From positions 1 through 36,373 of the forward strand of contig JAGXKT010000019.1 of NCBI GenBank assembly GCA_018335035.1: DNA of 36,373 nucleotides. Direction: 5' to 3'. Of this stretch, positions 25,466 to 31,445 are shown one piece after another. A model generated the notes under the pieces. The model saw only the letters and a list, made by a program, of their open reading frames with translations. It was not told where the DNA came from and did not search any database. Made by a program: the position numbers and the translations under genes. Position 1 is the first letter of the stretch; each line of letters starts with the position of its first letter. This stretch comes from Phycisphaerae bacterium (GTDB taxonomy: Bacteria > Planctomycetota > Phycisphaerae > SM23-33).

Positions 25466-26146
25466 ATGACGGAAACCAATGCTGACACGCGCGAGGCGCT
25501 GCGGGGCGTGCCGATGTTCGCCGCGCTGGACGCGGCCGCGGTGGAGCGAATCATCCGCGCCTGCCGCGTGCGCCGGTGCGACGCCGGGCAGATTCTGTTC
25601 ACCGACGGCGGCGAGGCGCGCGAGTTTTTCGTGCTGCTCGAAGGCCGCGTGAAGGTTTACAAGCTCTCGCCAGGCGGCGAGCAGCAAATCCTCCACCACT
25701 ACGGGCCCGGGCGGACGTTCGCCGAGGCGGCCGTGCTGGCCGGGGGAACCTACCCCGCGTATGCCGAGGCCGTCGACGGCTGCCGCCTGCTGGCCGTGCC
25801 GGCACGGCGGATTCACGACCTGGTCGGCGAAAGCCCGGACCTGGCGCTGGGGATGCTGGCGGGCATGGCCGCCAAGCTGCACGAGTTCGCCACGTTGATC
25901 GAGGCGCTGTCGCTCAAGGACGTCCCCGCCCGGCTGGCGACGGAGTTGCTCGATGAGGCCGATGCCGCCGGCGGCGACGACTTCCGCCTGGCGGTAAGCA
26001 AGTCCGAGCTCGCCGCTCGAATAGCCGCCGCCCCCGCCACGCTCAGCCGCGCGCTGGGCAAGCTCGCCCACGCCGGCGTCATCGCCGTCGAGGGCAGGCA
26101 CGTCCGCATACTCGACCGCGCCCAACTCGAACAGCTTGCGGGATGA
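25466..26146 (+). CDS. CRP/FNR-family transcription regulator
   Basis: A 226-residue regulator. A cyclic-nucleotide-type beta-roll (about 15-125) has the turn FTDGGEAREFFVLLEGRVKVYK. A dimer helix follows, then a winged helix-turn-helix (about 178-207). There is no N-terminal [4Fe-4S] Cys cluster; only Cys33 and Cys38 occur near the start, so it is not a classical FNR oxygen sensor. The recognition helix APATLSRALGKL keeps Ser194-Arg195 but has Ala191 where FNR and CRP have a base-contacting Glu. Its position beside the Fe-S genes and the downstream hcp group suggests an HcpR-like nitrosative-stress regulator, which is an inference. It converges with the URO-D gene. Confidence 0.9.
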   Translation: MTETNADTREALRGVPMFAALDAAAVERIIRACRVRRCDAGQILFTDGGEAREFFVLLEGRVKVYKLSPGGEQQILHHYGPGRTFAEAAVLAGGTYPAYAEAVDGCRLLAVPARRIHDLVGESPDLALGMLAGMAAKLHEFATLIEALSLKDVPARLATELLDEADAAGGDDFRLAVSKSELAARIAAAPATLSRALGKLAHAGVIAVEGRHVRILDRAQLEQLAG

Positions 26147-26160
26147 GGTCGCGCGACGCC

Positions 26161-27204
26161 TCAGAACTGCTGGCGGTGGGCGGCGCCGTAGGTGCGCGCC
26201 TCGTCCAGGAACGCCTCGATGTTCTCGTACGGCGTGCCGGCGACGATGCCGTTGCCGGCCGCGATGCACATCCCGCCGTCCGGGCGGTCGAACGTGTCGA
26301 TCAGGTGCCGCACCTCCTGCCGCACGTCGTCCGGCGAGCCCTCCTGCAGCGTGTGCTGCACGTCGAAGCCCGCCAGAAAGCACAACCGGTCGCCGAAGTC
26401 GCGCGCCACGGCCTGTTCGTCCATGGTGTGCTTCTGTACCGGGTGAAACACGTCCACGCCCGCCTCGGCCAGATCGCCGAGGATCTCCGTGTTGTTGCCG
26501 CAACTGTGCAGCCAGAAGTGCATCCCGAATTCGTCGCACGCCTCGCTGACGCGCTGGTAGTACGGCTTGATGAACTCGCGGAAGTGCTCGGGCTTCATCA
26601 TGAGCTGCTTCTGATTGCCCAGATCGTCGCTGGTCCAGAATCCGTCGGGCTTCAGCTCGCGCCCCGCCCGGCGGATCAACCCGCAGTACAGCGTACACAG
26701 CGCGTCGTAGAGACGATGAATCTGCTCCGGATACAGGTAGTAGTCCATCATCAGGTTCGCCATGCCGCGGAGCGACCACGGCCGCTCGAAGAACAGACAC
26801 CAGAAGCCGAAAATCAGGTACCGCCCGTCGGCGTGGGCTTGCTCGGCTTGCGAGGCGATTGCATCGAACAGGCCCGGAGCTTCCGGATCGGGCATCTTCT
26901 CGATGAACTCGTCGAGGTGTTTCCAGTCCGGGATCACGCCGCCGGCGTCGTGGCTTGCCCCGGCCTGTGCGGCCGGGTCGTACCAGCTCAGCCCCATCGG
27001 CTCGATCGGCAGCGGTTCGATGTACATCCGCACGGCGTCTTCGGGATACCGCGCGTCCAACTCGCCGATACGGTCGCCGTACTGCTCGATGAGCCCCTCG
27101 CCCCACCACGTCGCGGCCACTATGGGCACCCGCGCCGGATGGCGGCGTTCGACGGCTTTGACGACTTCCTCACGCGACAACGGCTCAGGGGGTTCGTCAG
27201 ACAT
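26161..27204 (-). CDS. Uroporphyrinogen-decarboxylase-fold methyltransferase family protein
   Basis: A 347-residue protein of the URO-D superfamily. It looks like the corrinoid-linked methyltransferase branch (MtaA/CmuA type) rather than a true heme-pathway HemE. Its zinc motif is His233-x-Cys235 (LHSCGN) with Cys313 in GGMCIAAGN, spaced like methylcobamide:CoM methyltransferases. Substrate unknown. I start at ATG 27204 (MSDEPPEP), with GGAG just upstream; a GTG start seven codons earlier is possible. It diverges from the ferredoxin gene, and the region between them holds an FNR-type box. Confidence 0.85.
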   Translation of the reverse strand: MSDEPPEPLSREEVVKAVERRHPARVPIVAATWWGEGLIEQYGDRIGELDARYPEDAVRMYIEPLPIEPMGLSWYDPAAQAGASHDAGGVIPDWKHLDEFIEKMPDPEAPGLFDAIASQAEQAHADGRYLIFGFWCLFFERPWSLRGMANLMMDYYLYPEQIHRLYDALCTLYCGLIRRAGRELKPDGFWTSDDLGNQKQLMMKPEHFREFIKPYYQRVSEACDEFGMHFWLHSCGNNTEILGDLAEAGVDVFHPVQKHTMDEQAVARDFGDRLCFLAGFDVQHTLQEGSPDDVRQEVRHLIDTFDRPDGGMCIAAGNGIVAGTPYENIEAFLDEARTYGAAHRQQF

Positions 27205-27308
27205 TCTGTTCTCCATCTCAACCACGGGGCGGTCCGGGACGGTCTGTTACCACGATAACGATCGGTAATCCACCCGCAACATGCCGGGACGTCCTTTTTC
27301 GCGCGGAA

Positions 27309-27322
27309 TTGACCCACGTCAA
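27309..27322. promoter_or_regulatory. FNR/CRP-family operator TTGAC-N4-GTCAA
   Basis: The 14-bp TTGACCCACGTCAA is a perfect inverted repeat of TTGAC about a 4-bp centre, the geometry of FNR/DNR/HcpR boxes (consensus TTGAT-N4-ATCAA). Its centre is exactly 41.5 bp upstream of the start predicted from the -10 hexamer TAGAGT at 27345-27350, the class II activator position. It also lies between divergent genes and could act on the URO-D gene. Confidence 0.85.
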
Positions 27323-27344
27323 GGAACCTTATACCGGCAGATGC

Positions 27345-27350
27345 TAGAGT
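27345..27350 (+). promoter_or_regulatory. -10 element of the ferredoxin/hcp transcript
   Basis: TAGAGT places the transcription start at about 27357, giving a 33-nt leader with the ribosome site GGGAGA before ATG 27390. The -35 position is occupied by the FNR-type box, as in class II activated promoters. Confidence 0.6.
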
Positions 27351-27389
27351 TTGTGTGAAGCGAGCGCGCAAACCGCCGGGAGACGAACC

Positions 27390-28184
27390 ATGACACGCCG
27401 AATGCGCGATATTGTGCGGATCGACGAGGACAAGTGCGACGGCTGCGGCGTCTGCGTCCCGAGCTGCGCCGAGGGCGCCATCCAAGTGGTCGACGGCAAG
27501 GCCCGCCTGGTGGCCGAGAACCTCTGCGACGGGCTGGGCGCCTGTTTGGGCACGTGCCCGAAAGGCGCGATCACCATCGAGCAGCGACCGGCCGAGGCGT
27601 TCGACGAGCAGGCCGTCGAGGCGGCAAACGCCGGCGGCGCCGAAGGGCAGGCCCCCGAGCGGCCGGACGCGGGCGACGCCCCGGCCGAGTTGCCGTGCGG
27701 TTGCCCGAGGACGATTATGCGAAAGCTCGACGGGCGCGACGACGACGCGCCGGACACCGCGCCGGGCGGCACCGATGCCGCCGACGGGCTCGCTCGCTCG
27801 CGTCTCGGTCAGTGGCCGGTTCAGCTTTCGCTTCTGCCGCCGACGGGCGACATCTGGGACGGCGCGGACGTGCTTCTGGCGGCCGACTGTGCCGCCTATG
27901 CCGTCGGCGACTTCCACGACCGCTTCCTCGCCGGGCGGACGCTGGCGATCGCCTGCCCGAAGCTCGACGAGGTCGCCGCATACAATACGAAGTCGCGGCG
28001 GATCGTGGCGGACAATGCCGTCCGCTCGATCACGGTCGTGCGGATGGAGGTGCCCTGCTGCAGCGGGCTGGAAACGCTCGCCCGCGAGGCCATCGCCGCG
28101 TCCGGGCGGGACGTGCCCCTGAACGTCGTCACCGTCGGCGTCGACGGGGACGTCCAGAACGTCAACGGACTGAAAGTGGCGTGA
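27390..28184 (+). CDS. Ferredoxin-domain protein, Hcp-associated
   Basis: A 264-residue protein. The N-terminal ferredoxin unit has CDGCGVCVPSC (Cys16, 19, 22, 26) and a second motif, CDGLGACLGTCP (Cys46, 52, 56). The second motif has Leu49 in place of its second Cys, so only one standard cluster, or an unusual second one, is expected. Residues 70-140 are a low-complexity linker that includes CGCP (103-106). The C-terminal domain (about 140-264) has conserved-looking Cys167, Cys189 and Cys223/Cys224. It is the first gene after the FNR-type box, in the position of ferredoxins that donate electrons to hybrid cluster protein. It probably supplies electrons to Hcp at 29778, which is an inference. 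Confidence 0.9.
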   Translation: MTRRMRDIVRIDEDKCDGCGVCVPSCAEGAIQVVDGKARLVAENLCDGLGACLGTCPKGAITIEQRPAEAFDEQAVEAANAGGAEGQAPERPDAGDAPAELPCGCPRTIMRKLDGRDDDAPDTAPGGTDAADGLARSRLGQWPVQLSLLPPTGDIWDGADVLLAADCAAYAVGDFHDRFLAGRTLAIACPKLDEVAAYNTKSRRIVADNAVRSITVVRMEVPCCSGLETLAREAIAASGRDVPLNVVTVGVDGDVQNVNGLKVA

Positions 28185-28239: not shown

Positions 28240-28593
28240 TTGGCCATTCGGATCAAGCGAATCTACGACGACGCTGACGATGGGGACGGTTACCGCGTGC
28301 TGGTGGACCGCCTCTGGCCGCGCGGGATCAAAAAGGCCGACGCCGAGCTCGACGCCTGGGCCCGCGAGCTGGCGCCGAGCGACGCGCTGCGCAAATGGTT
28401 CGGCCACGACGCGGACAAGTTGGATGAATTTAAGAAGCGCTATGCCAAGGAGTTAGATTCAAACGACGACGCGGCCCAGACGCTGGACGATCTCAAGAGC
28501 CGCGCCCGCGACGGGCGGGTGACGCTGCTCTACGCGGCCAAGGACACCGACCACAACAACGCCGTGGCATTGAAGGAATACCTCGAATCATAG
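28240..28593 (+). CDS. DUF488 family protein (YeaO-like)
   Basis: A 117-residue protein. IKRIYD, DGYRVLVDRLWPRGIKK, DAWARELAPS and LRKWFGHD are the family's conserved elements, and it ends with TLLYAAKDTDHNNAVALKEYL. The enzymatic function is not known. The start is TTG 28240, with GGGAG seven bases upstream; no ATG fits the conserved N-terminus. It follows the ferredoxin gene by 55 bp, probably in the same transcript. Confidence 0.93.
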   Translation: MAIRIKRIYDDADDGDGYRVLVDRLWPRGIKKADAELDAWARELAPSDALRKWFGHDADKLDEFKKRYAKELDSNDDAAQTLDDLKSRARDGRVTLLYAAKDTDHNNAVALKEYLES

Positions 28594-28777: not shown

Positions 28778-29119
28778 ATGATCGAGAGCAAAAATGTCGC
28801 CCAGGTCGAGCCGATGCCCAACCCCCACGGCGTGGCCGCCCGCAAGCTCCACGACAGCGAGCACGCCCAGGTGGTGCACCTGACGATGACGCCCGGCCAG
28901 GGCCTCCGCCCGCATATTACGCCGGTCGACGTGTGCTTCTATGTGCTCGCCGGGCGGGGGACGGTGGAGATCGGCGCCGCGTCGCGCGAGGTGGGCCCGG
29001 AGACGCTGGTCGAAAGCCCGGCCGGCATCCGCCACCGCTGGCAAAACGACGGCGACGAAACGCTGAGCATCCTGGTCATCAAGGCCCCGAAACCCACCCA
29101 GCAGACGCAATTGCTGTGA
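28778..29119 (+). CDS. Small cupin-domain protein
   Basis: A 113-residue single cupin. PHITPVDVCFYVLAGRGTVEIG (from 45) and SPAGIRHRWQN (80-90) are the two cupin motifs. His46 and His86 are likely metal ligands. Such small cupins are frequent next to hcp in anaerobes, but their role is not established. It lies 47 bp before the DUF6448 gene. Confidence 0.85.
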   Translation: MIESKNVAQVEPMPNPHGVAARKLHDSEHAQVVHLTMTPGQGLRPHITPVDVCFYVLAGRGTVEIGAASREVGPETLVESPAGIRHRWQNDGDETLSILVIKAPKPTQQTQLL

Positions 29120-29166
29120 GACGAAGCCGCCCTAAGGCCTGACAAGGAATCCCCGGAGACTGCGTG

Positions 29167-29781
29167 ATGATCCCCGCGACGACTGTGATGCTGACGATGA
29201 CCCTGGCCGGCGGCGCGCTGGCGTGGTTGCTGCTGGGCGGGCATTGCGACTCGCTGGGCGGGCCGGTCGTGGCCGACGCCCGCTACGCGCTGGAGGCCGA
29301 CGACGCGACGCCGCTGCTCAAGTGGGTCGGCCCGGAGCAGGCCGACGAGTTGGCCGACGTGTTCGGGCAGGTTCAGAAGGCTCGCCGTGGCGGTGACCCC
29401 GCCGCGACCGAGCTGGCCGAGCGATACCTGCTGGAGATGGCCGTGCGGCTGCACCGCGCCTCGGAAGGCGCGGGCTTCGACGGGCTCAAGCCCGCCGACG
29501 CCGTTCCGCCCTGGGTCCGCGCCGCCGACGAGGCCATCGAGCGCGGCGGCGCCGAGGCGTTGATCGATCAACTGACCGCGCGGGTCGCAGACGGACTGGG
29601 CCAGCGCTTCGCCGAACAGCGCGACGCGCGCCCGGCCGATGAGACCGACGTGGCCGCCGGGCGACGATGGGTCGAACGATACATCCGATTTGTTCACTGT
29701 GTCCACGAGGTCGCCGACGCCGTCGGCGGCGGCGAAAACGATAACCCGCCAAACCCCGACCTCAGAGGAGACGAGCGATGA
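29167..29781 (+). CDS. DUF6448 family protein
   Basis: A 204-residue protein with an N-terminal hydrophobic segment (about 7-24), directly followed by HCDSLGGPVVADARYALE (His26, Cys27). This HCD-x-x-x-GPV motif with a helical body (VEAGRRWVERYIRFVH-like end) is typical of DUF6448. The function is unknown. GGAG and ATG 29167 give the start; a GTG at 29164 is possible. Its stop overlaps the hcp start as ATGA, so the two proteins are probably translationally coupled. Confidence 0.8.
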   Translation: MIPATTVMLTMTLAGGALAWLLLGGHCDSLGGPVVADARYALEADDATPLLKWVGPEQADELADVFGQVQKARRGGDPAATELAERYLLEMAVRLHRASEGAGFDGLKPADAVPPWVRAADEAIERGGAEALIDQLTARVADGLGQRFAEQRDARPADETDVAAGRRWVERYIRFVHCVHEVADAVGGGENDNPPNPDLRGDER

Positions 29782-31445
29782 ACATGTTCTGTTACCAATG
29801 TGAGCAGACGGCCAAGGGAAGCGGCTGCACCGCGCACGGCGTCTGCGGCAAGGACCCCGAGACCGCGACCATGCAGGACCTGCTGGTCTATGCCGTCAAG
29901 GACATCGCCCGCTACGCCCACCGCGCCCGGCAGCTCGGTGCGGCCGACGCGGAGATCGACGCATTCGTGCCGGCGGCGCTGTTCGCGACGGTCACGAACG
30001 TCGACTTCGATCCGCAACGCATTCAGCAGCTCGTCGCGGCCGCGGGGAACCTGCGGGACAAGGCAGTCAATCTGTACGAGAACGCCTGCCGCGACGCCGG
30101 GCAGGAGCCCGAGACGCTCACGACCAAGCTGGCGTGGTGGGAGAGCACCGACGACCTTTCGGCGATGATCGACGCCGGCGAGCAGATCGCTATCACCAAG
30201 CGGATCAACGCCTACGGCGACGACGTGGCCGGCCTGCAGGAGCTGACGCTCTACGGGCTCAAAGGCGCCGCGGCCTATGCCGATCACGCCCGGTTGCTGG
30301 GCGTCGCCGATGACAATCTGTTCGGCGACTTCCACGCGATGCTCAGCGACCTGGCTGACGAGCCGACCGACGCCGAGGCGCTGACCGCCAAGGCCCTGAC
30401 GGCCGGGGCAATCAACCTCCGCGCCATGGAGCTTCTGGACAAGGCCAACACCGACGCCTACGGGCACCCGGAACCGACGCAGGCCCGCGTCACGCCGGTG
30501 GCGGGCAAGTGCATCTGCGTCTCCGGGCACGACCTGAAGGACCTCGCCGAGCTGCTGGAACAGACGGCCGGGACCGGCATCAACGTCTACACCCACGGCG
30601 AGATGCTGCCGTGCCTGGCGTATCCCGAGCTGAAGAAGTACGACCACCTCGTCGGCAACTACGGCGGCGCGTGGCAGAACCAACGCCAGGAGTTCGATGA
30701 ATTCCCCGGCGCGATCCTGATGACCACCAACTGCATCCAGAAGCCCAAGGACAGCTACAAGGATCGCATCTTCACCACGGGCCTGGTCGCCTGGCCGGGC
30801 GTGACGCACATCGACGAGAACGCCGACGGCACGAAAGACTTCTCGCCCGTGATCGAAGCCGCCCGGGCCGCGGCGGGCTTTGCCGAAGACGCCGAGGAGA
30901 AACGCATTCCCTGCGGCTTCGCCCGCAACGCCGTGATGGGCGTGGCCGAGGAGGTCGTCGAGGCCGTCAAGGGCGGCGATATCCGGCACTTCTTCCTGAT
31001 CGGCGGCTGCGACGGCGCCAAGACCGGGCGGAACTACTACACGGAATTCGCCCAGGCGGTCCCCGACGACTGCGTCATCCTGACGCTGGCGTGCGGCAAG
31101 TATCGCTTCAACAAGCTGGAGTTCGGCGAGATCGGCGGCATCCCCCGCCTGCTGGACGTGGGTCAGTGCAACGACGCATACTCGGCCGTCAAGATCGCCC
31201 AGGCCCTGGCCGACGCGTTCGACTGCGACATCAACGAGCTGCCGCTGTCGCTGATCCTGAGCTGGTACGAGCAGAAGGCCGTGGCGATTCTGCTGACCTT
31301 GCTGCACCTCGGCGTCAAGGACATGCGTCTGGGTCCGTCGCTGCCGGCCTTCGTGGCGCCGAACGTGCTGAACGTGCTCGTCGAGCAGTTCGACCTCAAA
31401 CCCGTCGCCAGCCCGAGCGAGGACCTGCAGGCCGCGCTGGCGTAA
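29778..31445 (+). CDS. hcp: Hybrid cluster protein (hydroxylamine reductase)
   Basis: Fe-S-oxygen enzyme that protects against nitrosative stress; it reduces NO and/or hydroxylamine. The 555-residue protein is class I. The N-terminal cluster motif is Cys5, Cys8, Cys17 and Cys23 (CX2CX8CX5C). All hybrid-cluster ligands seen in Desulfovibrio are present: His251 (GHD), Glu275 (HGEMLP), Cys319 (TTNCIQKP), Cys411 (GGCDGAKTGRNYY), Cys439 (LACGKYRFN), Cys464 (GQCNDAYSA) and Glu498 (WYEQKAV). It lies at the end of a transcript that begins with the FNR-type box, and starts 4 nt inside the DUF6448 gene. No Hcr reductase is nearby; the ferredoxin at 27390 is the likely donor. Confidence 0.98.
   Translation: MNMFCYQCEQTAKGSGCTAHGVCGKDPETATMQDLLVYAVKDIARYAHRARQLGAADAEIDAFVPAALFATVTNVDFDPQRIQQLVAAAGNLRDKAVNLYENACRDAGQEPETLTTKLAWWESTDDLSAMIDAGEQIAITKRINAYGDDVAGLQELTLYGLKGAAAYADHARLLGVADDNLFGDFHAMLSDLADEPTDAEALTAKALTAGAINLRAMELLDKANTDAYGHPEPTQARVTPVAGKCICVSGHDLKDLAELLEQTAGTGINVYTHGEMLPCLAYPELKKYDHLVGNYGGAWQNQRQEFDEFPGAILMTTNCIQKPKDSYKDRIFTTGLVAWPGVTHIDENADGTKDFSPVIEAARAAAGFAEDAEEKRIPCGFARNAVMGVAEEVVEAVKGGDIRHFFLIGGCDGAKTGRNYYTEFAQAVPDDCVILTLACGKYRFNKLEFGEIGGIPRLLDVGQCNDAYSAVKIAQALADAFDCDINELPLSLILSWYEQKAVAILLTLLHLGVKDMRLGPSLPAFVAPNVLNVLVEQFDLKPVASPSEDLQAALA

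Follow-up and report, generated by a model that had tools for sequence, protein, structure and literature searches.

A conserved palindromic box at class II activator distance before a ferredoxin-hcp operon of a Phycisphaerae bacterium, a probable HcpR1-type operator

We analysed in silico a stretch of 36,373 nucleotides (contig JAGXKT010000019.1 of assembly GCA_018335035.1, hereafter the window; G+C content 68%) from a Phycisphaerae bacterium. Five same-strand genes encoding a ferredoxin, a DUF488 protein, a cupin, a DUF6448 protein and the hybrid cluster protein Hcp follow one another with gaps of 55, 184, 44 and -4 bp. On their upstream side lie NifU, NifS and a CRP/FNR-family gene, and between the latter and a palindromic box in front of the ferredoxin gene there is a divergent URO-D-like gene; the CRP/FNR gene and the divergent gene agree with the first-pass annotation of this DNA. 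The features are as follows.

25466..26146, + strand: CRP/FNR-family regulator, HcpR1/DNR-like, with Ala for Glu181 (Pfam; genome-wide HTH_Crp_2 search; best solved relative DNR; residue reading)
26161-27225, divergent from the ferredoxin gene: URO-D/MtaA-like gene
27309..27322, + strand: putative HcpR1/FNR-like palindromic activator box TTGACCCACGTCAA (sequence; conserved before orthologous ferredoxin genes)
27323..27344, + strand: 22-bp spacer, conserved in length and free in sequence except for the leading GG (locus comparison)
27345..27350, + strand: -10 hexamer TAGAGT, preceded by TGC; start predicted at 27357 (sequence, locus comparison)
27390..28184, + strand: FrdX-type ferredoxin, Fe-S dicluster-like in its N-terminal part, the C-terminal domain lacking a Pfam model (Pfam, alignment)
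28240..28593, + strand: DUF488 protein, inactive N3 subclade (domain search)
28778..29119, + strand: Cupin_2 protein (domain search)
29164..29781, + strand: DUF6448 protein (domain search)
29778..31445, + strand: hybrid cluster protein Hcp (NF003658 at 821 bits, cut-off 367; PF03063)

No terminator-like site was found on the + strand up to 28800, and the 184-bp gap between the DUF488 and cupin genes may contain a promoter or a transcript end. The ferredoxin/hcp gene order of the window recurs in relatives, and from this order and the adjacency of both genes in relatives carrying the box, hcp would belong to the ferredoxin transcript; the view of hcp as a target, already put forward in the first-pass annotation, is borne out by the comparison. 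The ferredoxin is best described as a probable FrdX on the basis of context and domains, and its closest named records in the ferredoxin search came from metagenome-assembled genomes of Phycisphaerae and other Planctomycetota. In its C-terminal domain (about residues 105-264, positions 27700-28184) five cysteines, C105, C167, C189, C223 and C224, are invariant across phyla and possibly form a further metal site; the predicted structure of the ferredoxin matched no PDB fold below E 0.001 (best 0.012) that would assign this domain.

Direct reading of the window places TTGACCCACGTCAA at 27309-27322 with its centre at 27315.5, the outer ten bases forming the perfect palindrome TTGAC....GTCAA. The spacer between the box and TAGAGT (27345-27350) is exactly 22 bp long (27323-27344), TGC stands directly before the hexamer in the manner of an extended -10, and the predicted start at 27357 puts the centre of the box at -41.5; the box centre, the hexamer, the start and the distance of -41.5 had been given correctly to the base in the first-pass annotation. 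Downstream of TAGAGT follows a leader with GGGAGA and then the ferredoxin start at 27390. A promoter scan detected no sigma-70 promoter at the box region, and a -35 element is absent. The arrangement corresponds to that of class II CRP/FNR-activated promoters, namely a centre near -41.5 (relative to the predicted start), a -10 and no -35. On the strand of the divergent gene CGGCAT lies 22 bp from the box, which is not a -10, and the geometry therefore points only at the ferredoxin gene; control of the URO-D-like gene by the box was rejected for this reason.

The box was the sole match in the window when up to one mismatch was allowed, and perfect TTGACN4GTCAA occurs five times in the whole 2.74-Mb draft genome. 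Three of the other four sites lie within coding sequence (ORF reading) and one is located on contig C48 without a fitting -10; a wide regulon in this genome was rejected, as these sites are not in promoter-like places. When the 164-bp intergenic region was randomised 20,000 times with a first-order Markov model, the perfect palindrome arose in 0.01% of the versions, and its combination with a -10 at 22 bp in none (0/20,000). Together with conservation in relatives these shuffles rule out a chance palindrome.

The conservation check proposed in the first-pass annotation was performed on two sets of loci and proved strongly positive. The first set came from a search for the ferredoxin in the window's own genome and those of relatives, 60 genomes in all, from which 30 orthologous loci were read. 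The box precedes the orthologous ferredoxin in 17 of them, with identical 22-bp spacing and varying spacer sequence, and a pattern search added G056 as the 18th boxed genome. The second set comprised 80 loci drawn from named records that span many phyla, and 103 upstream regions were available after removal of duplicates. A perfect TTGAYN4RTCAA was present within 200 bp upstream of the ferredoxin gene in 35 of the 103 loci, counted irrespective of the relatedness of their genomes, as opposed to 0.1 expected. A [TGC]ANNNT hexamer stood exactly 22 bp past the box in 27 of these 35 loci (8 for the next commonest spacing; some of the -10 matches are loose), and the class II architecture suggested for the window thus holds in relatives. 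The second half-site is as strictly conserved in the relatives as the first, and some of them carry TTGAT...(A/G)TCAA boxes. Apart from a GG right after the box, the spacer sequence is not conserved among the 35 loci; a class II activator site requires its distance, but not the intervening sequence, to stay constant. This GG, at 27323-27324 in the window, is found at 28/35 and 32/35 loci and on the promoter side only, and is an asymmetric extension of the palindrome. At three boxed loci (L170, L191, L227) the position 22 bp past the box holds no good -10, and no regulator was found in the genomes of L170 and L191; for these reasons the three boxes have perhaps arisen by chance. Judged by these comparisons, the box is a real, evolutionarily conserved element at a fixed promoter distance before the ferredoxin-hcp operon.

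The same box was also observed in front of other genes. In a Desulfovibrionaceae contig (L222) and a Smithellaceae contig (L172) hcp comes first and is preceded by a TTGAC box lying 22 bp from a -10-like hexamer (TATCTC and TATAGA, respectively); a Desulfovibrio-type TGTGA site was sought before hcp in L222 and was absent, the TTGAC box being there instead. HD-domain proteins recur in boxed ferredoxin-hcp operons (L054, L055, L060, L061, L092, L067), and one gene in L092 (zinc ribbon and HD-like part) and one in L067 (zinc-ribbon protein) are each preceded by a separate box followed 22 bp later by a -10. In L082 (G024:C40) a box, with a -10-like hexamer 22 bp past it, stands before a gene judged Fur/PerR-like by eye; the genome has the regulator and hcp and lacks a close ferredoxin orthologue. 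Furthermore, in four relatives (L054, L055, L061, L062) a YgbA_NO (PF11756)-like gene, called by Pfam in two and by evident similarity in the other two, lies 3' of the ferredoxin gene, and in related boxed operons it is placed between ferredoxin and hcp. The E. coli ygbA is NO-responsive and regulated by NsrR (PMC5320621).

The first-pass annotation had pointed to a CRP/FNR protein encoded 1.2 kb away. This is the product of 25466-26146, whose gene lies 1.16 kb from the box; it combines HTH_Crp_2 and cNMP_binding domains (Pfam), and no other HTH_Crp_2 protein encoded in the genome exceeds the Pfam cut-off. Of the 18 boxed genomes, 16 contain a close orthologue, defined by E below 1e-45 and with the fragmented gene of G025 counted in; the 13 genomes whose ferredoxin gene lacks the box contain none (Fisher 5e-7, to be read with care since the genomes are related). 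The two boxed genomes in which no close regulator was found, G006 and G056, perhaps owe this to incomplete assemblies. In several genomes the regulator gene adjoins ferredoxin or hcp, and in Malonomonas rubra and other Desulfuromonadales regulator orthologues accompany the same box. The regulator gene is in pieces in G025 and interrupted by a stop in G024 (L051, L109), though box or hcp is kept, which may reflect assembly error or decay. Autoregulation was considered and rejected, as the 160 bp upstream of the regulator gene contain no box, even with two mismatches allowed, either in the window or in those close orthologues that are full-length; L114, a distant homologue, does have a perfect box upstream. 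The nearest solved relative of the regulator is DNR (1e-26). Its only cysteines are at 33, 38 and 106, and the FNR cysteine cluster is absent.

A peculiarity overlooked in the first-pass annotation concerns the recognition helix (26008-26080), which reads PATLSR and hence has Ala at the position of CRP E181 and FNR E209. Every box-associated orthologue with a readable helix, as well as DNR, has Glu there (ETLSR, ETFSR). Rodionov et al. 2005 (PMC1274295) reported a correlation between this position (CRP E181) and the A in the half-site, and with Ala at 181 the window regulator might bind its box less well or differently. The box itself still matches the core consensus perfectly. Judging from the sequences, either the Ala regulator still reads the box or the change to Ala would be recent.

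In Geobacter, Desulfuromonas and Desulfotalea, hcp and frdX were predicted to be preceded by the HcpR1 motif wyTTGACnnnnGTCAArw (Rodionov et al. 2005, PMC1274295). The window shares with that regulon the core motif TTGACnnnnGTCAA, hcp and frdX as targets, and a CRP/FNR regulator lacking the FNR cysteines and having Pro or Ser at helix position 180 (Pro180 in the window regulator); of the flanks aa...gg, the positions w and r agree with the published motif and y and the last w do not, GTCAAGG being found in most relatives as well. In contrast to the published regulon, the host is a member of the Phycisphaerae, Ala replaces Glu at 181 so that the Ser/Pro180 and Glu181 pair, which has been linked to DNA specificity, is incomplete, DUF488, cupin and DUF6448 genes stand between frdX and hcp, and the class II spacing is fixed across many genomes. 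A literature search, covering few subscription papers, found no paper on an HcpR-type system in Planctomycetota. With class II promoters of E. coli FNR the window has in common the shape of the box, the centre at -41.5 and the protein family, but the regulator lacks the [4Fe-4S] cysteine cluster, the targets differ, and the box TTGAC...GTCAA has C/G where the FNR site TTGATnnnnATCAA prefers T/A. The earlier label "FNR-type" is thus better replaced by HcpR1-like, as the box is not of the TTGAT...ATCAA form. Pseudomonas DNR (PDB 3dkw), the closest solved sequence, has a similar box and senses NO by haem (PMC12750200), but it controls the nir/nor/nos denitrification genes through TTGATnnnnATCAA-like sites and its helix is PETFSR. 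The HcpR2 branch, which includes the HcpR proteins of Porphyromonas and Clostridioides, likewise provides CRP-family control of hcp in anaerobes, with haem and NO sensing in Porphyromonas HcpR (PMC12750200); it is another branch, with the motif GTAACnnnnGTTAC in most members and another residue at 181 (PMC1274295).

In view of the box and its constant 22-bp spacing from the -10, of their conservation, and of the co-occurrence with the regulator and the gene content, we consider it probable (roughly 0.78) that the site is an HcpR1-type operator through which the 25466-26146 protein exerts class II activation of the frdX-to-hcp operon. The assignment to the HcpR1 type follows from the agreement of motif core, targets and regulator class with Rodionov 2005 and refers to the mode of action, Glu181 being the HcpR1 feature that the regulator lacks. 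A dimer of the protein would bind TTGACCCACGTCAA at -41.5 and touch RNA polymerase, replacing the missing -35 element, and frdX, the DUF488, cupin and DUF6448 genes and hcp would be switched on from about 27357, with both transcript ends predicted. On the model of HcpR and DNR, NO or some other reactive nitrogen species would most likely be the activating signal, sensed via a cofactor other than the Fe-S cluster of FNR, probably haem. FrdX would most likely hand electrons to Hcp, which would remove NO or hydroxylamine.

The signal is the part of this scheme for which a different reading deserves most attention. With box and activator unchanged, the regulator might, like other members of the CRP/FNR family, sense the redox state or a small molecule such as haem or hydroxylamine; the lack of FNR cysteines and of any solved structure closer than DNR (1e-26) leaves room for this, but Hcp and, in relatives, YgbA_NO are NO-linked and the nearest solved relative is DNR itself, and we regard a signal other than NO as unlikely. 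Still less probable is that the box is a relic, read poorly at TTGAC by a regulator devoid of Glu, with the operon now expressed weakly or constitutively. The substitution of Glu181 by Ala in the window protein only would suit such a relic, but box and 22-bp spacing are intact, although held by only 10 bases, and the reading frame of the regulator is whole, its end branch of 0.9 being within the range of relatives. We consider it very improbable that the regulator is a repressor leaving the box on meeting NO, a mode proposed for HcpR2 of Desulfovibrio desulfuricans (PMC5701242), since the fixed -41.5 position and the absent -35 suit activation and a repressor would need no fixed spacing. Finally, a sigma-70 promoter with TTGACC as -35 (resembling TTGACA), TATACC 15 bp downstream (27330-27335) as -10 and a palindrome by chance is refuted by the negative promoter scan and by relatives, which conserve the second half-site and the hexamer 22 bp past the box and not TATACC.

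Not all ferredoxin loci carry the box. In 25 loci an Rrf2-family gene lies directly upstream of ferredoxin (three calls by Pfam, the others with a profile made from five of these genes); these loci belong to Synergistota, Myxococcales, Armatimonadia, some Planctomycetota and others, and include L037-L039, L042, L045, L165, L173, L177, L195, L203 and L214. None of the 25 has a TTGAC box before ferredoxin or rrf2. Near the rrf2 promoter most of them carry a palindrome resembling GGTAYYRTAATACC, and a similar palindrome was seen in L041, L066 and L213, ferredoxin loci without an adjacent rrf2; statistics on GGTAYYRTAATACC are not independent, as the palindrome was spotted by eye in sequences later used for the count. 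The situation resembles control of hcp by NsrR, also of the Rrf2 family, in which hcp is switched on under NO, and differs from that of the window in that protein and operator are unrelated, the TTGAC box is missing and such a regulator is absent from the window's operon. We tentatively suggest, at somewhat less than even odds, that frdX-hcp has been rewired between an HcpR1-type activator (TTGAYN4RTCAA, fixed at -41.5) and an upstream-encoded Rrf2 regulator that recognises a GGTAYYRTAATACC-like operator close to the core promoter, with no locus of our sets combining both, and that in the lineage of the window the HcpR1-type protein reads an unchanged box without the invariant Glu.

The system of the window would be a further case of the already described HcpR control scheme for NO defence, and would widen the range of this predicted switch to several more phyla, among them Planctomycetota that are uncultured. 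The promoter geometry is precise enough for predicting transcript starts in many genomes. Moreover, the pairing of an unaltered operator with a regulator that lacks the conserved Glu provides a natural test of the recognition code of the CRP family.
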